Positions 53,881 to 63,441 of a DNA stretch of 64,000 nucleotides are shown here, piece after piece. Position 1 is the first letter of the stretch, and the number at the start of each line of letters is the position of its first letter. The notes under the pieces are model-generated. The model was not told the DNA's origin and made no database searches. It worked only from the letters and a program-made list of their open reading frames with translations. A program made the translations under genes and the position numbers. Source of the stretch: Anaerosomatales bacterium (GTDB lineage Bacteria > Actinomycetota > Coriobacteriia > Anaerosomatales > Anaerosomataceae). The stretch lies in the NCBI GenBank assembly GCA_030019445.1, contig JASEEU010000003.1, positions 1 through 64,000 of the forward strand. The letters run 5' to 3'.

Positions 53881-54720
53881 ATGTCGGGCGTTGCGCTGCG
53901 CGTGCACGAGCACGGCACGGCCGGACGGCCGCGCGTCATCGTGCTGCACGGCGGCCCAGGCGGAGCGGGGGAGGCGACGCCGCTGGCCGAGGGTCTCGGC
54001 AGGTGGTTCTCGGTGCTCGAGCCGTGGCAGCGCGGGAGCGGGAGCGAGCGGCTCACGGTGGCCCGGCACGTCGCCGACCTGCACGAGGTCGTCATCGGGT
54101 GCGGCGAGCCCCGGCCGGCGCTCGTCGGCCACTCGTGGGGCGCGATGCTCGCGCTCTCCTACGCTGCCACCCACCCCGAAGCGGCCGGCCCGCTCGTGCT
54201 CGTGGGCTGCGGGACCTACGACGAAGCGTCGCGTGCGCAGATCGGCCGGACGCTGGGCGACCGGGTGGACGCGGATGTGGAAGCGGCGTTCGACGACCTC
54301 ATGTCGGTCGCCGACCCCGTCCGCCGCGCGCAGCGCCGCCACGGGCTCATCGAGCGGCTCTACGCGTTCGAGCCGGATGACACGCTCCCGAGGCCGACCA
54401 TAGAGATCGACGAGCGGGCGCAGGATGAGACCTGGTCGGACGTCGTACGCCTGCAGGCCGAGCGCATCGAGCCGCAGCGCTTCTCGGCCATCACCGGTCC
54501 GGTGCTCATGGTGCACGGCGCGCACGACCCGCACCCGGGCGCGATGATCCGGGACACGCTGCGTGCGGTCATGCCGCAGCTCGAGTACCGCGAGCTCGCG
54601 CGCTGCGGCCACACGCCGTGGATCGAGCGGCACGCGCGAGACGAGTTCTTCACCGTCGTGCGAGAATGGCTGGCACGGCACGAGACGACAGGGGTGAAGC
54701 GCGCCGATGGCGATGCGTGA
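53881..54720 (+). CDS. Alpha/beta hydrolase (prolyl aminopeptidase-like)
   Basis: A 279-residue protein: VIVLHGGPGGAGE (HGGPG), ALVGHSWGAMLALSYAA (nucleophile elbow), VLMVHGAHDPHPGA (Asp), RCGHTPWIERHARDEF (His). The HGGPG motif is typical of proline iminopeptidase-like enzymes. In this operon it could act as an acyl-CoA or ester hydrolase; this is inference. It overlaps porG. Confidence 0.9.
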   Translation: MSGVALRVHEHGTAGRPRVIVLHGGPGGAGEATPLAEGLGRWFSVLEPWQRGSGSERLTVARHVADLHEVVIGCGEPRPALVGHSWGAMLALSYAATHPEAAGPLVLVGCGTYDEASRAQIGRTLGDRVDADVEAAFDDLMSVADPVRRAQRRHGLIERLYAFEPDDTLPRPTIEIDERAQDETWSDVVRLQAERIEPQRFSAITGPVLMVHGAHDPHPGAMIRDTLRAVMPQLEYRELARCGHTPWIERHARDEFFTVVREWLARHETTGVKRADGDA

Positions 54721-55282
54721 CGACACGATGCACGAGATCCGATGGCACGGCCGCGGCGGCCAGGGGGCGGTGACTGCCGCCAAGATACTCGCGGACGCCG
54801 CGTTCGGCAGCGGGTGGCGCGGCGTGACGAGCGCGCCGTCGTTCGGTGCCGAACGCCGGGGCGCGCCGGTGACCGCTTCGACGCGGCTGGCCGCCGAGGA
54901 GATCCGCGTGCTGTCACAGGTGACCGAGCCCGATGTGGTGGTCGTGCTCGACGAGTCCCTGCTGGATGTGGGCAAGGCGACAGCGGGCATCAAGCCGGGC
55001 GGCGTCATCATCGTCAACACCACCCGCCCCGCGGCGGAGCTTGGCCTTGCGGGCGACTTCCGCGTGGTGGCCGCCGATGTGACTGGCGCGGCGCTTGAGG
55101 CGGGCGTCGTCGTCGCGGGCACGCCGCTCGTCAACACGGCGATCCTCGGAAGCGTGGCCGCCGCGACGGGCCTGGTCACCATCGAGAGCGTGGCCGCCGC
55201 CATCGAGCATGTCTTCTCGGCGAAGCTGGCCGAGAAGAACGTCGCGGCCGCCCGGCTCGCCTTCGAGTGCACGAGCAGGTAA
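54707..55282 (+). CDS. 2-oxoacid:ferredoxin oxidoreductase, gamma subunit
   Basis: A 191-residue PorG-type protein: HEIRWHGRGGQGAVTAAKILADAAF, FGAERRGAPVTASTRL, ADVTG, NTAILGSVAAATG, and KNVAAARLAFE. With delta, alpha and beta subunits it forms a heterotetramer oxidising 2-oxoacids to acyl-CoA with ferredoxin. G-D-A-B order is typical of PorGDAB/VorGDAB. Confidence 0.95.
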   Translation: MAMRDDTMHEIRWHGRGGQGAVTAAKILADAAFGSGWRGVTSAPSFGAERRGAPVTASTRLAAEEIRVLSQVTEPDVVVVLDESLLDVGKATAGIKPGGVIIVNTTRPAAELGLAGDFRVVAADVTGAALEAGVVVAGTPLVNTAILGSVAAATGLVTIESVAAAIEHVFSAKLAEKNVAAARLAFECTSR

Positions 55283-55294
55283 GGAGCGAGAAGC

Positions 55295-55609
55295 ATGCGC
55301 GACCGCAGCCACGATATCTCGATGTCGCGACCGGCAGCCGGCGAGGCGGGCAGGACCGGCGACTGGCGCAACGCGCGGCCCGTGATGGTGGCCGAGCGCT
55401 GTCTCGCCGTCCGCCAGGGAACCGTCACGTGCCAGATCTGCTGGGTGTACTGCCCCGACGCGTGCATCGCGCAGGGCGTGGGCCCCGTCATCGACCTCGA
55501 GCACTGCAAGGGGTGCGGCATCTGTGCCGAGATGTGCCCGGCCTCGGCGATCCAGATGCGTCCGGAGAGCGTGCATGGCGTGTGCGCCGTTGAGGAGGGC
55601 GAGCGATGA
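55295..55609 (+). CDS. 2-oxoacid:ferredoxin oxidoreductase, delta (ferredoxin) subunit
   Basis: A 104-residue protein with two 4Fe-4S motifs: CQICWVYCPDAC and CKGCGICAEMCP. It carries electrons from the TPP centre to ferredoxin. It overlaps the alpha subunit start (ATGA). The first motif has the CxxCxxxCxxxC spacing of the family. Confidence 0.94.
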   Translation: MRDRSHDISMSRPAAGEAGRTGDWRNARPVMVAERCLAVRQGTVTCQICWVYCPDACIAQGVGPVIDLEHCKGCGICAEMCPASAIQMRPESVHGVCAVEEGER

Positions 55610-56832
55610 GCCACGCGAAGACCCGCGTGATGACCGGGAACGAGGCCGCGGCGCACGCCGCTCGCCTCGCGCGCGTACAGGTCGTCGCCGCGTACCCCAT
55701 CACGCCGCAGTCGCCGGTGGTGGAGACGCTGTCGGAGTGGGTGGAGTCGGGCGAGCTCCCCGCCGAGTTCGTGACCGTCGAGTCCGAGCACTCGGCGCTC
55801 ACGGTGTGCATCACCGCGTCGACCGTCGGGGCGCGCACGTTCACCGCGACGAGCGCGAACGGTCTTGCCTACATGACCGAGCAGGTGTGGTGGGCGGCGG
55901 GCGCGCGCCTGCCCATCGTCATGGGTATCGCCAACCGCGCCATGGCGGCCCCGTGGAGCGTGCTCAACGACCAGCAGGACTCGATGTCGGTGCGTGACGC
56001 CGGCTGGGTGCAGCTCTACTGCCGCAACAACCAGGAGATCCTCGACACGCTCGTGCAGGCGTACCGCATCGCCGAGTCGCTCTACGTCCCGGTGATGGTC
56101 TGCTACGACGGCTTCCTGCTGTCACACACCATGATGCCGGTCGAGCTCCCCGATCCGGACACCGTCGACGCGTTCCTCCCTCCCTACCATCCGCTCACGG
56201 TCGTCGACCCCGACGATCCGCGCAACATCGGGCCCGTGACGCTGGCCGATCCGCGTCCAGACGCCGAGGGCGTCGCGCGCAACGGCTACATGGAGTTCCG
56301 CGCGCTGCACCATCGCGCACTGCTCGGCGCTCTCGAGACGATAGAGCGCGTCGATGCCGAGTACGGCGCGGCCACCGGCCGCACGTGGGGCGGGCTGCTC
56401 TGGGAGCACCGGTTGGACGATGCCGACGTGGTGCTCATCGCGGCGGGCTCGCTCGGCACGCAGCTCACCGTGGCGGCTGACGAGCTGCGGGACGAGGGCA
56501 TGAACGTCGGGGTGCTCGGCATCCGTTCGTATCGGCCGTTCCCCGCAGTCGCGGCGCGCGACGCGCTCGACGGGCGCTCGCTCGCGCTCGTCTTCGACAA
56601 GGCCCTCTCGTACGGTCACGAGGGCCCGATCTGCTCGGACATCCGCTCGGCGCTTCAGTCGCGGACCGGGGCGCCTGTCGTGTACGGCGCCATATGCGGG
56701 CTCGGCGGACGCGACGTCTCGCCCGCCGACCTGGCGGATGCCACCAGGCGTGCGGTCGCGGACCGGGCGGCGGGCATCGTCGACCGCGAGCCTGACTGGA
56801 TCAACCTCCACCTTGAGGAGGACGCCCGATGA
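55606..56832 (+). CDS. 2-oxoacid:ferredoxin oxidoreductase, alpha subunit
   Basis: A 408-residue PorA-type protein: MTGNEAAAHAARLARVQVVAAYPITPQSPVVE, FVTVESEHSALTVCITASTVGARTFTATSANGLAYMTEQ, ANRAMAAPWSVLNDQQDSM, and a C-terminal domain with VLGIRSYRPFP. The TP-ITPQSP motif is characteristic. The substrate could be pyruvate, 2-ketoisovalerate or arylpyruvate; sequence alone does not decide, though the acyl-CoA synthetase next to it favours branched or aryl acids. Confidence 0.95.
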   Translation: MSHAKTRVMTGNEAAAHAARLARVQVVAAYPITPQSPVVETLSEWVESGELPAEFVTVESEHSALTVCITASTVGARTFTATSANGLAYMTEQVWWAAGARLPIVMGIANRAMAAPWSVLNDQQDSMSVRDAGWVQLYCRNNQEILDTLVQAYRIAESLYVPVMVCYDGFLLSHTMMPVELPDPDTVDAFLPPYHPLTVVDPDDPRNIGPVTLADPRPDAEGVARNGYMEFRALHHRALLGALETIERVDAEYGAATGRTWGGLLWEHRLDDADVVLIAAGSLGTQLTVAADELRDEGMNVGVLGIRSYRPFPAVAARDALDGRSLALVFDKALSYGHEGPICSDIRSALQSRTGAPVVYGAICGLGGRDVSPADLADATRRAVADRAAGIVDREPDWINLHLEEDAR

Positions 56833-57749
56833 CACGCATCACCGAGCTTCCCACCGACGAGGTCGTCCTGCCGGGCAACCGCGCGTGCGCGGGCTGCGGT
56901 ATCGGCATCGGTCTCCGCGCGGTCACCAAGGCCCTCGAGGGCCGGCTCGTCCTGGTCAATCCCGCAAGCTGCCTCACCGTCCTCGGCGGCATGTTCCCGA
57001 CGAGCTCGGTCGCCGTCCCGTGGGTCAACGTCGCGTTCCCCAGCACCGCCGCCGCCGCCGCCGGGTTGGCCGCCGGGCTGCGCGCGACCGGCAGGGCCGA
57101 TGAGATGACCGTGCTCGCTATGGCGGGAGACGGCGGCACGTCCGACATCGGCATCCAGGCGCTCTCCGGCGCGGCCGAGCGCAACGACGACTTCATCTAC
57201 GTCTGCTACGACAACGAGGCGTACATGAACACCGGCACGCAGCGCTCAGGCCTCACTCCCCGCGGCGCCCGCACAACGACGACATGGACCGGCAAGCGAG
57301 AGAACCCGAAAGACGTGCCCCGCATCATGGAGGCGCACGGCATCCCGTACCTCGCCTCGACCTCCGCGGTGTTCCCTACCGACGTCTACGACAAGGTCGT
57401 GAAGGCGCGTTCGATCGAGGGGCTTCGCTACATCCACATGAGCACGCCGTGTCCGAGCGGCTGGCAGTTCGATCCCAAGGACACCGTCACGATCGGACAG
57501 CTCGCGGTCGAGACCGGGCTGGTCGCGCTCTACGAGGTCGAAGACGGCGCGTTCCGTCTCACCGGGCGCAGCGCCTCGCTCGCGCGCAGCGGAAAGCGTA
57601 AGCCGGTCGCCGACTACATCCGCATGCAGGGCCGATTCAAGGGCATGGCCGAGGAAGACATCGCCGCCGTCCAGGCGTGGGTCGACCAGCGATGGGCGGG
57701 TTACATCGCGCGGCACGAAGCGAGCGCGGGCGAGTCTACCGGCGCCTGA
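56829..57749 (+). CDS. 2-oxoacid:ferredoxin oxidoreductase, beta (TPP) subunit
   Basis: A 306-residue PorB-type protein: NRACAGCGIGIGLRAVTKAL (Cys for the 4Fe-4S), MAGDGGTSDIGIQALSGAAERND (TPP GDG motif), CYDNEAYMNTGTQRSGLTPRGA (NxxYMNTGxQ) and STPCPSGWQFDP. Completes the catalytic core; overlaps the alpha stop by four bases. Confidence 0.95.
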   Translation: MTRITELPTDEVVLPGNRACAGCGIGIGLRAVTKALEGRLVLVNPASCLTVLGGMFPTSSVAVPWVNVAFPSTAAAAAGLAAGLRATGRADEMTVLAMAGDGGTSDIGIQALSGAAERNDDFIYVCYDNEAYMNTGTQRSGLTPRGARTTTTWTGKRENPKDVPRIMEAHGIPYLASTSAVFPTDVYDKVVKARSIEGLRYIHMSTPCPSGWQFDPKDTVTIGQLAVETGLVALYEVEDGAFRLTGRSASLARSGKRKPVADYIRMQGRFKGMAEEDIAAVQAWVDQRWAGYIARHEASAGESTGA

Positions 57750-57956
57750 GCTGATCCATGAAACGTCGGTCCTCCTCACCGATGTGCTTCGTGAGCCGCT
57801 GTGCCACGAGTCCGGCAGGCTCCCGCGCCGCGGTGCACGACGGCAAGCCCAGATGGTTATGCATTGCGCGTGCGGGACAGATACCCCTTACGCGACCGGC
57901 AAAGCCGTCGGAGTCGGTCGTCGATGCGTGCGGTCCGTCGGCGAGGGGCTGTTCAC

Positions 57957-59498
57957 ATGATCGGTCGAGACGCCGTGCCCCGGCGCGTTGCGCTCATCGA
58001 GGCCGGCACCCCGGGTTTGCACGTCTACTCGCATGTCGCGATGGGTCGGGGCACGCCGCTGCTTGCCACGGTCGTACGTGACGCCGGTTTCGAGGTGCGG
58101 GCGTTCGTGGAGGACGTGAGCGGACAAGGCTCGGTCGATTGGGGATTCGTCGCCTCGGCCGGCATCGTCGGCTTCTCGGCCATAACCTGCACGATGCCGC
58201 GAACGACGGACCTCATCGAGCGAACGCGGGCTGTCAATCCCGGCGCAGTCATCGTGCTCGGCGGACCCCACCCCACGTGTGAGCCGCTCGGCAGCCTCGA
58301 CGCAGGCGCGGATGTGGTGCTGCGCGGAGAAGGCGAGGACACGTTCCCCCGCCTCTGCGCCGCGCTCACCGGATCTGGCACGGAACTCGAGACCATCGAG
58401 GGCCTCGTCTGGCGTGAGGCCGGCGCGGTTCGTGAGACAGGTCCTCCGCGACAGCTCACGAGCGCTGAGCTCGACAGTCTTCCGCGAGTCGACCGATCGC
58501 TCGTCCATCGCGCTGATGCCGCCTCGGTGGCGTGGGCATGGCGGGCTCGTGGATGTCCCAAACGATGCGACTTCTGCGAGGTGTGCGAGATCTGGCCACG
58601 ATACTCGGCGCGCAGCGTCGAGACGACCGTGGCCGAGTTGCTCGCCGCACAGGACGAGGGGTATCCGACGGCGTTTCTGATCGACGACAACGCGGCTGCC
58701 GACAAGCGCTCGTTCAAGCGCATGCTCGCGCTGATGGCCGAGGGTGGGTTTGCCCGGACGCTCGTCACACAGATCCGCGCCGACGCGGCGTTCAGGTCTG
58801 ACGGATCGCTCGATCGCGAGTTCCTCACGCTGCTTCGGCGCGCGGCCACGGTCACTGTCGTCTGCATCGGCGTGGAGTCGGCCTCCGACCCGAACCTCGC
58901 GAAGCTCGGCAAAGAGATCGACAGCTCGACGATGGCGCGCGCGCTGAGAGCGATGCGTCGCTACGGGCTCGTCGTCCACGGCATGTTCATCGCCCTTGCC
59001 GAGGACACCGCCGAGGTGATCAGCCGCAACGGCGCATACGCGCGCCGGCATGTGCACTCGCTGCAGTATCTGTTCGAGGTGCCGCTGCCGGGCACGCGCA
59101 GAACACGTGAGCACCGGGCCGCCGGTCGCCTGCTGTTCGACGCGAGATCGGACCTCGCGTACTACGATGGCATGCATGTAGTGCTGCGACCTCTTGCGGT
59201 CCATGCTGCGGAGATGCAGAAGCTCGTGGTCGAGCAGTATCGACGCTTCTACTCCGGTCGGCGGATCGTGACTGCGGCGGTCTGTTCGGCGTTCACCCGC
59301 ATCCGTGCCCTGGGTGCTGCGCAGCGCGCATACCTGCGGCGCGTCTCGGCCCGAAGACGCATCTACTGGTGGGGGCGACTGCACCTCGAGCAGATGCTCG
59401 CTCCGGTGGCTGTGCTCATCACGGGACACCGGCGAGTCAAAGCGTTCATGACCGATCCCGGCTACAGGGAGTACGCGCGCAGACTGGATACACTCTAG
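57957..59498 (+). CDS. B12-binding radical SAM protein
   Basis: A 513-residue protein. An N-terminal B12-binding-like domain (ASAGIVGFSAITCTMPRTTDLIERTRAVNPGAVIVLGGPHPTCEP) is followed by radical SAM core RGCPKRCDFCEVCEIWPRYSARS (CxxxCxxC) and TIM-barrel strands with FLIDDNAAADK. Cognate to magnesium-protoporphyrin cyclase/BchE-like or hopanoid-methylase-like class B methyltransferases; product unknown. ATG 57957 follows GAGGGGC. It ends four bases into the convergent lipoprotein gene. Confidence 0.9.
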   Translation: MIGRDAVPRRVALIEAGTPGLHVYSHVAMGRGTPLLATVVRDAGFEVRAFVEDVSGQGSVDWGFVASAGIVGFSAITCTMPRTTDLIERTRAVNPGAVIVLGGPHPTCEPLGSLDAGADVVLRGEGEDTFPRLCAALTGSGTELETIEGLVWREAGAVRETGPPRQLTSAELDSLPRVDRSLVHRADAASVAWAWRARGCPKRCDFCEVCEIWPRYSARSVETTVAELLAAQDEGYPTAFLIDDNAAADKRSFKRMLALMAEGGFARTLVTQIRADAAFRSDGSLDREFLTLLRRAATVTVVCIGVESASDPNLAKLGKEIDSSTMARALRAMRRYGLVVHGMFIALAEDTAEVISRNGAYARRHVHSLQYLFEVPLPGTRRTREHRAAGRLLFDARSDLAYYDGMHVVLRPLAVHAAEMQKLVVEQYRRFYSGRRIVTAAVCSAFTRIRALGAAQRAYLRRVSARRRIYWWGRLHLEQMLAPVAVLITGHRRVKAFMTDPGYREYARRLDTL

Positions 59499-60214
59499 TC
59501 GGCGTCCTGCACCGGATACGGCAGCACGAACAGGTCGTCTCTTATCGGCACGCCGACTTCGACGTTCGAGAACATCCTGCGCGTCACCTGGAGCGTCCCG
59601 ATACTGCCGTCGTCCTCGGGCACCGCGCCGCGCACGATCACACCGATGACGACGTCATCTTTGACGAGATAGGTGATGTCCTCGCGGTACCACGCGTTGC
59701 TCGCGCCGGCCATCTCGGACATCTCTTTGACCGCGTAGGTGACGCGGGTGGCGCCGGTCTCCTCGTCGATGCCGTCCTCGACGCCGGGGACGTCAGGTCG
59801 CGTGAGCTCGGTGAGGTAGTGGTCGACCGGTGCGACGCTTGGCTGGCAGATCTCATCCGGATGCTGGGCGAAGTACGCTGTCTCGCCGTCCGGGGTGAGG
59901 ATGGAGCGGATGAACTCGCCGTCCTGGTACAGGTCGTAACGGAAGAGGCGGCCGTCCATCCAGAACTCGCCTGACTGCTCGAGCTCGGTCCCGTTGGCGA
60001 ACGTCGTATGCAGCGTGTACTCGCCCGTCTTGGTGTCGGCCTCGAGGTACTCGTCGAGGCTCGGATCGACGATGGCGCCCGTCTCCGCAGGGGGCGCATC
60101 GGTGGTCGTCTCGGCGCTCTGGTCGGTCTCGGCCAGCAACGGACAGCAGCCTGCGGTCGTGAGCAGCACACCGACCGCGACGATGACGAGGGCTGCGAGC
60201 AGTCGACCCTTCAT
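59495..60214 (-). CDS. LolA/LppX-like lipoprotein
   Basis: A 239-residue lipoprotein. The signal peptide (VIVAVGVLLTTAGC, lipobox TAGC) is followed by a domain of repeating beta strands: GEYTLHTTFANGTELEQSGEFWMDGRLFRYDLYQDGEF, then TYAVKEMSEMAGASNAWYREDITYLV. The pattern resembles LolA/DUF4412-like proteins that carry hydrophobic cargo. ATG 60214 has GGGGGAC upstream. Confidence 0.83.
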   Translation of the reverse strand: MKGRLLAALVIVAVGVLLTTAGCCPLLAETDQSAETTTDAPPAETGAIVDPSLDEYLEADTKTGEYTLHTTFANGTELEQSGEFWMDGRLFRYDLYQDGEFIRSILTPDGETAYFAQHPDEICQPSVAPVDHYLTELTRPDVPGVEDGIDEETGATRVTYAVKEMSEMAGASNAWYREDITYLVKDDVVIGVIVRGAVPEDDGSIGTLQVTRRMFSNVEVGVPIRDDLFVLPYPVQDAD

Positions 60215-60288: not shown

Positions 60289-61047
60289 TCACATCGGGAC
60301 GAGCGTGTTCGCGAACACAAGCCAGGCAAGGAGGGACTTGGCGGTGAGGCTCAAGAAGACGTACACGGCCTCGCCGAACAGGTAGTCGCGCCACTTGCCG
60401 ATGCGCCGGTATTGCAGCCATTGGTTGAGCGCGAAGCTGTTGAAGAACACGAACATCGACACGAAGATCCAGTACACGAACGCGGGCGGCTCGGCCGCTG
60501 TGGTCGGGCTCCAGATGTAGTACGCGATGGCGAGCCAGGGCACGATCCCCGCGATGCAGCCGAAGACGAAGGGGAGCCAGCCGCGCTCGCCGGGCTCCTC
60601 GTAGTGCTCCTGCAGCAGGCCGAACAGGATCATGGACGCGTTCGCGCCGATGAGGCCAAGAAGCGCCGCGATGTCGCTGATGCCCGGAAGCATCGCGATG
60701 AGCACGACCATCAGCGATGAGCTGAACGCGTACTCGATCCACCGCGCGTAGTTGCGGTGCCGCTCGAGGTTTCGGACGTACCACGGGAAGACCGGAGGTG
60801 ATGCGATGATGAAGTGCGCGAGTGCCGACATGAACACGAAGGCGGCCACCGCAGCGCCGAGAGGCAGTGTGAAAAGCTCCGTCGGCGTCGTCGGTGTGCC
60901 CGGAGGGCCCTCCAGGAACGACGCGGTGACCGGCAGACCGAAATCGTTGCTCAGCGCGACGATCGCGACGCCCTGACCCGCGTGGAACGATCCCATGACC
61001 ACGTTGTAGATGCGGAGCCGCTTGAACCGCCGATCGTGCTCTGCCAT
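60289..61047 (-). CDS. Heliorhodopsin
   Basis: A 252-residue seven-helix protein with all heliorhodopsin landmarks: His22 (SFHAGQG, TM1), His78 (ALAHFIIAS, TM2), Glu105 (RWIEYAFSSSLM, TM3 counterion), Ser233 and retinal Schiff-base Lys237 (FLSLTAKSLLAW, TM7). Spacing agrees with the prototype (H23, H80, E107, S237, K241). N-terminus lies inside in this family, opposite to type 1 rhodopsins. It binds retinal; no transport is expected, photosensing is proposed. GGGGGGCG precedes ATG 61047. It stands alone between a lipoprotein and tRNA-Phe. Confidence 0.95.
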   Translation of the reverse strand: MAEHDRRFKRLRIYNVVMGSFHAGQGVAIVALSNDFGLPVTASFLEGPPGTPTTPTELFTLPLGAAVAAFVFMSALAHFIIASPPVFPWYVRNLERHRNYARWIEYAFSSSLMVVLIAMLPGISDIAALLGLIGANASMILFGLLQEHYEEPGERGWLPFVFGCIAGIVPWLAIAYYIWSPTTAAEPPAFVYWIFVSMFVFFNSFALNQWLQYRRIGKWRDYLFGEAVYVFLSLTAKSLLAWLVFANTLVPM

Positions 61048-61156: not shown

Positions 61157-61232
61157 GGCCAGGTAGCTCAGTTGGTAGAGCATCGCACTGAAAATGCGGG
61201 TGTCGGCGGTTCAAGTCCGTCCCTGGCCACCA
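61157..61232 (+). tRNA. tRNA-Phe(GAA)
   Basis: GGCCAGG/CCTGGCC acceptor stem, anticodon arm CGCA-CTGAAAA-TGCG (GAA), T-loop GGTTCAAGTCC and encoded CCA (61230-61232). Confidence 0.96.
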
Positions 61233-61331: not shown

Positions 61332-62018
61332 ATGCCCAAGGCGCTCGTCGTCGATGACGAAGCGAACATCCGCGAGCTCGTGAGGGTCTACCTCGACGCG
61401 GCGGACTTCAGCGTCGACGAGGCGGCTGACGGCATCACCGCGCTGCGGCTTCTCGGCGAACGCGCCTACGATGTCGTCGTCCTCGACATCATGCTGCCCG
61501 AGGTGGACGGCGTCGAGATCTGCCGGCGCATCCGACGGACGTCGGACGTGCCCGTGCTCATGCTGACCGCGCGCCGCGAGGACACCCAGAAGGTTGCGGC
61601 CCTCGAGCTCGGTGCCGACGACTACATCACCAAGCCGTTCAGCCCGCCGGAGCTGGTGGCGCGCGTGCGTGCGGTCCTGCGGCGCGCCACCGCGCCGTCA
61701 ATCACCGAGGCACCGCTCGCCGTCGGCGAGCTCACGCTCGATCCGGCGTCGCGTGAGGTGCGCGTGGGCGATCGCGTCGTCATGCTGACCGCCAAGGAGT
61801 TCGACCTGCTCGAAGCGATGATGCGCGAGCCGGGCGTGGTCTTCAGCCGGGAGCGGCTGTTGGAGGCCGCCTGGGGCTTCTCGGACTACCTGGACGCGCG
61901 GGGCGTGGACGTCCACATCAGGCACATCCGGGACAAGCTCGGCGACGACGCCGCCGAGCCGCGGTTCGTGGAGACGGTCCGCGGGGTGGGCTACCGCATC
62001 CGCAAGGAACGTGACTGA
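61332..62018 (+). CDS. OmpR/PhoB-type response regulator
   Basis: A 228-residue regulator with the receiver domain (DD at ALVVDDEANI, phosphoacceptor D52 in VVLDIMLPEVDG, K in ITKPFSPPEL) and a winged-helix effector domain (LTAKEFDLLEAMMREPGVVFSRERLLEAAWGF, then RGVDVHIRHIRDKLGDD, VRGVGYRI). ATG 61332 follows GAGGAG. Directly coupled to the kinase downstream. Confidence 0.96.
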   Translation: MPKALVVDDEANIRELVRVYLDAADFSVDEAADGITALRLLGERAYDVVVLDIMLPEVDGVEICRRIRRTSDVPVLMLTARREDTQKVAALELGADDYITKPFSPPELVARVRAVLRRATAPSITEAPLAVGELTLDPASREVRVGDRVVMLTAKEFDLLEAMMREPGVVFSRERLLEAAWGFSDYLDARGVDVHIRHIRDKLGDDAAEPRFVETVRGVGYRIRKERD

Positions 62019-62019
62019 C

Positions 62020-63441
62020 ATGGCTCACCCACGCGGCGTGTCGTTCACGCGACAGACGCGAGCCTCGATGATGATGGTGACGATCATCGCGGTGCTGGTG
62101 TTGTTCGGCGCGTTCTCCATCGTCTGGCTCCAGTACACGGTGGACGCGCGGGAGCGCGAGCTCAGCCGCCAGGTGACCGCGCTCGCGCTCGGCCCCGAGG
62201 CTGTGCCGCTTCCGGGAGCGCAGCTCGACAGCGAGTTGAGGATGCGGCTCTTCCGCGTGCAGGCCGGCATCATCGGCGCGCGACTCCTCGTCACGGATGG
62301 CGAGGGCGGGGTGCTCTTCGCCTCCTCGCCCGAAGGCGGGCTGGCGCCCTTCGACATCGAAGCGCTCGGCGGACCCGACGCCCGCGGCGCGCGGTCCTCG
62401 GTGACCGTGTCGGCGGGAGGAGACCGGACGCTTGTCGTGGCGGCTCCCATCGAGGGCGTGGACGGCTACATCGTCGCCGTACAGCCGTTGTCCGAGGTGA
62501 GCGGCGCCGGCGTCAACGCCGCGCTGCTGCTCGGTGCGGCGGCGCTCGTCGCCGTGCTCGTCGGCTGGCTGGCTGGCGGCATCTTCGCCCGACGGGTATC
62601 CGGCCGGATCGTGCGGCTCGGCGATGCGGCCGAAGCAATCGCGGGAGGCGAGTGGGGTCGCCAGGTGGAGGAAGAGGGCGACGATGAGATCGCCACGCTC
62701 GCCCGGTCGTTCAACCGCATGTCATCGAGTGTGGCCCGGGCGTACCGCAGCCAGAAAGAGTTCGTCGGCGATGTCTCGCATGAGCTGCGTACGCCGATCA
62801 CGGCGATCCAGGGCTTCGCTACCGCGCTGGTTGATGGCACCGCGTCCTCGCCGGAGGCGCGCCAGCGGGCGCTGACGGTGCTCAAGCGGGAGGCGGACCG
62901 CCTCGGGGAGCTCACTGAGGCGCTGCTCGCACTGGCCGATCTTGATGCGGGGCAGCTCGCGCTCGACCGCTTGCCGGTCGACCCTGCCGCGCTCGCTGCG
63001 GCGCTGGTCGAGCGCCACGCGGATGCTGCCGGGGCGGCGGGCGTCTCCCTTGAGATCGCCGATCTCGCCTCGGCCGGACGTCCCCTCGGAGACGAGGCGC
63101 GCGTGCTGCAGGTGGCGAGCCAGCTCGTCGCCAATGCGCTCGCCTACACGCCTCGCGGCGGGACCGTGCGGGTGAGCGCCGGGGAGTCGGATGGTTGGTG
63201 GAGGCTTGCGGTCGACGATTCGGGTCCCGGCATCCCCATCGAAGACCGTGAGCGCATCTTCGAGCGCTTCGTGCGTCTCGATCCCTCGCGCGCAGGCGGC
63301 ACGGGCGGGACCGGGTTGGGGCTTGCCATCGCGAGACAGCTCCTCCGCCTCATGGACGGGCGTATCCGCGTGACCGACTCGGAGTTGGGTGGTTCGCGCT
63401 TCGAGATGGAGCTGCCGCTCGCGGCGCATGGCGCCCGCTAG
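62020..63441 (+). CDS. Sensor histidine kinase, EnvZ/PhoR-like
   Basis: A 473-residue kinase: TM1 (MVTIIAVLVLFGAFSIVWLQY), an extracytoplasmic sensor of about 110 residues, TM2 (ALLLGAAALVAVLVGWLAGGIF), a HAMP domain (residues about 190-240), HisKA with H254 (DVSHELRTPITAI) and HATPase with DSGPGIP and GTGLGLAI. ATG 62020 is one base past the regulator stop; a GTG at 62011 is an alternative. Confidence 0.95.
   Translation: MAHPRGVSFTRQTRASMMMVTIIAVLVLFGAFSIVWLQYTVDARERELSRQVTALALGPEAVPLPGAQLDSELRMRLFRVQAGIIGARLLVTDGEGGVLFASSPEGGLAPFDIEALGGPDARGARSSVTVSAGGDRTLVVAAPIEGVDGYIVAVQPLSEVSGAGVNAALLLGAAALVAVLVGWLAGGIFARRVSGRIVRLGDAAEAIAGGEWGRQVEEEGDDEIATLARSFNRMSSSVARAYRSQKEFVGDVSHELRTPITAIQGFATALVDGTASSPEARQRALTVLKREADRLGELTEALLALADLDAGQLALDRLPVDPAALAAALVERHADAAGAAGVSLEIADLASAGRPLGDEARVLQVASQLVANALAYTPRGGTVRVSAGESDGWWRLAVDDSGPGIPIEDRERIFERFVRLDPSRAGGTGGTGLGLAIARQLLRLMDGRIRVTDSELGGSRFEMELPLAAHGAR

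Follow-up and report, generated by a model that had tools for sequence, protein, structure and literature searches.

The only heliorhodopsin (HeR) gene in the genome of an Anaerosomatales bacterium was found in the window, i.e., the whole 64,000-nucleotide stretch of DNA analyzed here. By sequence and fold, its product is an ordinary heliorhodopsin. It is probable that this protein is a light-sensing regulator, not a pump, and that it is loaded with scavenged retinal in an anaerobe that has no known route to the chromophore.

Heliorhodopsin gene, fold and relatives

The HeR ORF starts with ATG, has no internal stops and is intact. The Pfam model Heliorhodopsin (PF18761, cut-off 26.7 bits) was aligned to it from end to end (E 2.3e-102, 341.9 bits, model span 1-242/242), and the NCBIfam equivalog "heliorhodopsin HeR" (NF038020, cut-off 100 bits) scored 327.4 bits. 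A type-1 (bacteriorhodopsin-like) identity was rejected, because PF01036 gave 27.5 bits against the 341.9 bits of PF18761. The best PDB sequence match was 48C12 (E about 5e-78, 52% identity over the aligned part). The AlphaFold2 model, built from 68 homologues with a mean pLDDT of 95, matched 48C12 (6su4) with Z 33.9 and rmsd 1.4 over 250 residues, and TaHeR (PDB 6is6, 44% identity) with Z 33.3. The best type-1 rhodopsin reached Z 22.5, well below the value for 6su4. Seven helices and a two-stranded A-B loop (strands 37-42 and 56-62), i.e., the HeR-specific trait, are predicted in the model. An inverted topology with a cytoplasmic N-terminus would be expected, and the basic N-terminus RRFKRLR agrees with it. 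The assignment to the heliorhodopsins made in the initial annotation was thereby confirmed.

Five residues had been named as being in register with the prototype, and all of them were aligned to their 48C12 equivalents, i.e., His22, His78, Glu105, Ser233, and Lys237 to His23, His80, Glu107, Ser237, and Lys241. Ten further members of the 48C12 hydrogen-bond network, as set out in PMC9726877, were also in register (Asn16, Gln26, Ser76, Tyr92, Arg104, Tyr108, Ser111, Glu149, Glu230, and Trp246). Following the motif definitions of PMC9601134, the TM7 SxxxK was assigned to Ser233/Lys237 and the TM3 ESL motif to Glu105/Ser109/Leu116 from the alignment with 48C12. The 15 network and Schiff-base positions that were checked are identical to 48C12 in all 32 distinct HeRs of the order, and the Schiff-base Lys and counterion Glu are invariant. 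A light-driven ion transporter has a precedent in one giant-virus HeR, V2HeR3 of Emiliania huxleyi virus 202, which transports protons according to PMC9448325. Such a function is very improbable here, as the window HeR is close to 48C12 with the network kept, and 48C12 releases no protons to the bulk (PMC9726877).

HeR was found in 42 of 398 sampled Coriobacteriia genomes, i.e., 41/69 of its own order and 1/329 of the rest, counts that include a few contig-edge fragments. The window genome has no other rhodopsin. With the type-1 model, no second rhodopsin was detected in the 69 genomes of the order, apart from a weak match to the window HeR itself. PF01036 fails to detect most HeRs of the order, and a soda-lake MAG study with OPB41 genomes screened rhodopsins by PF01036 alone. 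In the main text of the openly available papers that were searched, HeR had not been described earlier for Anaerosomatales, OPB41 or Coriobacteriia.

In the phylogeny, one set of 35 rows (SH-aLRT 97) takes in 31 of the 32 order HeRs, with the HeR of G003 as the exception. The other four rows include at least one, UBA912 (L070), that comes from the same genome as an order HeR. The clade splits into two sub-clades, and genome G141 holds one HeR of each (L013 on C118 and a second on C129; cf. L070). It is probable that HeR was present early in the order and was lost many times.

Among the 15 nearest HeR pairs of the order, dN/dS was 0.07-0.24 at dS 0.25-0.53, which points to purifying selection. 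The low dN/dS together with the 15 invariant positions argues against a relic gene, and by itself it is not proof of light reception. A relic or recently acquired HeR without function in the host would suit the patchy presence (41/69) and the lack of a conserved neighborhood. It would not suit the order-specific clade (SH-aLRT 97), the dN/dS well below 1, the invariant key residues and a locus position common to the window genome and G019. By these sequence comparisons the relic reading appears unlikely already, and we give it very little weight.

Three HeRs deserve separate mention. In G003, a genome of one contig from the same family, the HeR is a different one (G003:C1:1590230-1590961; L011, L119), which is 46% identical, lies outside the clade of the order and groups weakly with TaHeR. 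It is likely a replacement or a separate gain. On a contig labelled Candidatus Acetothermia (L043:3155-3910), the HeR was nested inside the Anaerosomatales clade, by horizontal transfer or misbinning. Among the other orders of the class a single HeR was found (L019, G360:C50:5369-6127); it has a very long branch and retains 15/15 of the checked network residues.

Probably anaerobic host and possible source of retinal

The window genome (2.09 Mb, 97.6% complete) belongs to the order Anaerosomatales, class Coriobacteriia, so the host is an actinobacterium as had been proposed. In the same order, the HeR protein of G053 is identical to that of "Anaerosomatales bacterium isolate C14-13" (JARGFT010000005.1). 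By genome-wide profile searches, neither COX1-type (haem-copper) nor bd oxidases were found in the window genome; the COX1 model PF00115 also takes in nitric-oxide reductases. The four-subunit Por-type enzyme near HeR is a marker of ferredoxin-based metabolism, and obligate anaerobiosis was described for both cultivated species of the order (PMC9686372). From these three lines we infer, with good support, that the host is anaerobic. The hint of oxygen-poor life that had been taken from the neighboring genes, i.e., the Por enzyme, is backed genome-wide by the missing oxidases.

A tie of HeR to oxygen use was considered and rejected, as HeR was not enriched with oxidases across the order. It was present in 6/17 genomes with an oxidase versus 35/52 without, a difference that vanishes within families. 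In family f10 (G085, G091, G103, G107, G109, G113, G123, and G131), no HeR match was found, and most members have a COX1-type gene.

Genome-wide statements on retinal synthesis rest on profile searches. Phytoene synthase (PSY), RPE65-type oxygenase and Blh above the cut-off were each found in 0/69 genomes of the order, of which 51 are at least 90% complete with at most 5% contamination and one is a single-contig complete genome. A weak Blh match in G127 was partial and below the cut-off. As model controls, PSY was found in 7/14 control genomes and RPE65 in two, and Blh was detected in a Nanopelagicales genome (E 1.3e-36). A self-sufficient retinal photosystem, i.e., phytoene synthase plus a carotenoid cleavage oxygenase in one genome, was not found in the window genome. 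The earlier statement that no carotenoid oxygenase lies near HeR holds for the vicinity and for the entire genome. The case for treating the retinal source as an open question is stronger than it had been put, with Blh, phytoene synthase and RPE65-type oxygenase all missing.

The same picture was seen beyond the order. Among 50 genomes picked via their HeR, from this and other lineages, Blh was found in one and PSY in seven, so HeR is commonly decoupled from retinal synthesis. Since the order has no phytoene synthase, cleavage oxygenase or Blh, its retinal would have to come from outside or by a novel route. The known carotenoid cleavage enzymes require O2, which weakens the idea of a novel route, perhaps one independent of oxygen, that bypasses phytoene synthase, Blh and RPE65-type enzymes; we regard it as very unlikely. 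Aurantimicrobium minutum does produce retinal without known cleavage genes (PMC7734400), but it has C40/C50 carotenoid genes, whereas even phytoene synthase is absent from all 69 Anaerosomatales genomes, the single-contig complete one among them.

Scavenging of external retinal would be the best explanation. The HeR apoprotein is said to bind external retinal rapidly via a small opening (PMC9296517), and the hosts of TaHeR (PMC9385722) and of the Ca. Actinomarinales HeRs (PMC7771536) are without retinal synthesis. The initial annotation had also proposed that absence of any retinal route would refute its reading. No known route was found in the genome. As a refutation this is too strict, because retinal from outside can enter HeRs, and further hosts of HeR are also without the pathway (PMC9385722, PMC9296517, PMC7771536).

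Genomic neighborhood and candidate partners

Features around the HeR gene in the window
Feature	Position	Strand	Basis and remarks
2-oxoacid:ferredoxin oxidoreductase subunits gamma, delta, alpha, beta (Por type)	54707..57749	+	profile matches
B12-binding radical SAM protein	57801..59498	+	distantly like BchE/HpnJ, below all cut-offs
Putative lipoprotein	59495..60214	-	lipobox-like N-terminus, no Pfam/NCBIfam family; likely start ATG 60214
Heliorhodopsin (HeR), 252 aa	60289..61047	-	ORF, profile matches and structure model
tRNA gene, putative tRNA-Phe	61157..61229	+	upstream, divergent from HeR
OmpR/PhoB-type response regulator	61332..62018	+	divergent; likely start ATG 61332
Sensor histidine kinase (HAMP-HisKA-HATPase_c)	62011..63441	+	profile matches

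The HeR gene had been described as standing alone. A small correction is needed, as HeR is followed on its own strand, after 74 bp, by the putative lipoprotein gene, which is possibly co-transcribed with it. On the other side, the later start of the response regulator was preferred because an ORF beginning at 61194 would lie partly on the tRNA gene. A 53% homologue of the radical SAM protein was also found near HeR in L072.

No neighbor was conserved across the order in 25 HeR contexts of ±6.5 kb, some of which are duplicate contigs of one genome. A conserved operon partner was rejected accordingly, since the lipoprotein recurs in G019 only and no neighbor is shared order-wide. In G019, a lipoprotein homologue (52% identical) and PorB were found near HeR with a transporter gene inserted, which supports a locus of shared descent rather than a fixed operon.

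The histidine kinase is the nearest candidate signaling partner of HeR. It lies 1.8 kb away and is divergent, with the tRNA between. Among the matches listed only, and in counts made after the contexts had been inspected, a histidine kinase was found within 6.5 kb of HeR in 6/12 genomes versus 1.5 expected (P 0.0015) and within 5 kb in 4/12 (P 0.02); the kinases differ from each other. This excess agrees with PMC8612252.

A full-length photolyase/cryptochrome-family protein of 496 aa was found in the oxidase-less window genome (L137:538-2028, minus strand; G000:C16), and its presence suggests exposure to light. A HeR-photolyase operon of the Trichococcus type was rejected, as the genes lie on separate contigs, i.e., photolyase on C16 and HeR on C17. 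Photolyase was present in 19/41 HeR genomes of the order. The association between both genes (odds ratio about 4, p 0.02) was gone when stratified by family, and photolyase as a general partner of HeR was therefore not retained.

Cultured carriers, proposed role and known systems

Two type strains carry HeR, i.e., Parvivirga hydrogeniphila Es71-Z0120 (G005; 1,840,996 bp, 9 contigs) and Anaerosoma tenue M08DHB (G016; 2,107,022 bp, 6 contigs). Both HeRs are intact with all key residues present. By profile searches, Blh, phytoene synthase, RPE65 enzyme, COX1, bd oxidase and photolyase were found in neither genome. P. hydrogeniphila originates from a deep-aquifer well open at 676-999 m. A. tenue was obtained at the surface, where the sediment and water of a mud-volcano lake were its source. 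The word "rhodopsin" occurs nowhere in the paper describing both strains (PMC9686372).

The deep-aquifer carrier without photolyase is a poor fit to a light role. Together with the intact gene, the purifying selection and the lack of known retinal genes in that isolate, it gives some room to a light-independent function, in which HeR, as apoprotein or bound to another ligand, would control a partner, and structural or ligand demands would preserve the retinal site. We consider this function unlikely, because the Schiff-base Lys, the counterion Glu and the entire proton network show no variation among the 32/32 HeRs, as would be expected of a working photoreceptor. In addition, ECL1-deleted 48C12, which is unable to bind retinal, aggregates (PMC6951262), so a retinal-free state may lack robustness. 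For the deep-subsurface Anaerosomatales in particular, HeR might work independently of light, either as a regulator that responds to retinoids or lipids or as an apoprotein scaffold. Photoreception would then be secondary or lost and the retinal site still selected; this is improbable.

For the reading as a light sensor that obtains its retinal by scavenging, the following course may be proposed. Phototrophs and other carotenoid makers would release all-trans retinal, which would partition into the membrane, enter the apoprotein through a lateral opening such as that in solved HeRs, and form a Schiff base with Lys237. Light would isomerize the retinal, and the proton would pass to Glu105 and the His78/His22 region. 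Through the conserved hydrogen-bond network, this change would then reach the cytoplasmic side and a partner protein whose gene lies at another locus. A histidine kinase and the photolyase from the other contig may be named as candidate partners only. Retinal uptake, photocycle, lack of pumping and a regulatory role are what we infer for the window HeR by analogy with studied HeRs.

The function of HeR has long been unsettled, and most work was done on heterologously expressed proteins. The order is largely oxidase-less, has HeR as its sole rhodopsin and a chromophore without a known route, and includes two type strains in pure culture. Therefore, the effects of retinal, light and gene loss are testable in a native host without blurring by endogenous retinal. 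A sharper question also arises, i.e., why a light receptor is retained in lineages from deep, presumably dark water.

HeR carriers without a retinal pathway were known already. The Anaerosomatales lineage with pure cultures is new, and the setting is apparently undescribed. The closest known system, 48C12 of an uncultured actinobacterium (PDB 6su3, 6su4, 6uh3), has the same length, fold, key residues and full hydrogen-bond network as the window HeR. It differs in host order, and the window host is without oxidases or carotenoid genes. The host of TaHeR, Thermoplasmatales archaeon SG8-52-1, is likewise without retinal synthesis, and external uptake via a fenestration was postulated (PMC9385722); however, this host is an archaeon and its HeR belongs to a separate clade. 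The Ca. Actinomarinales are also Actinomycetota with HeR and without retinal synthesis genes (PMC7771536). Unlike the window host, they are aerobic marine photoheterotrophs with an extra type-1 rhodopsin and a HeR locus fixed between nuo operons. Trichococcus flocculiformis, like the window genome, has HeR and photolyase in one genome (TfHeR-photolyase). Its photolyase is of class II and shares an operon with HeR (PMC9769723), whereas that of the window genome is of another type and is encoded on another contig.
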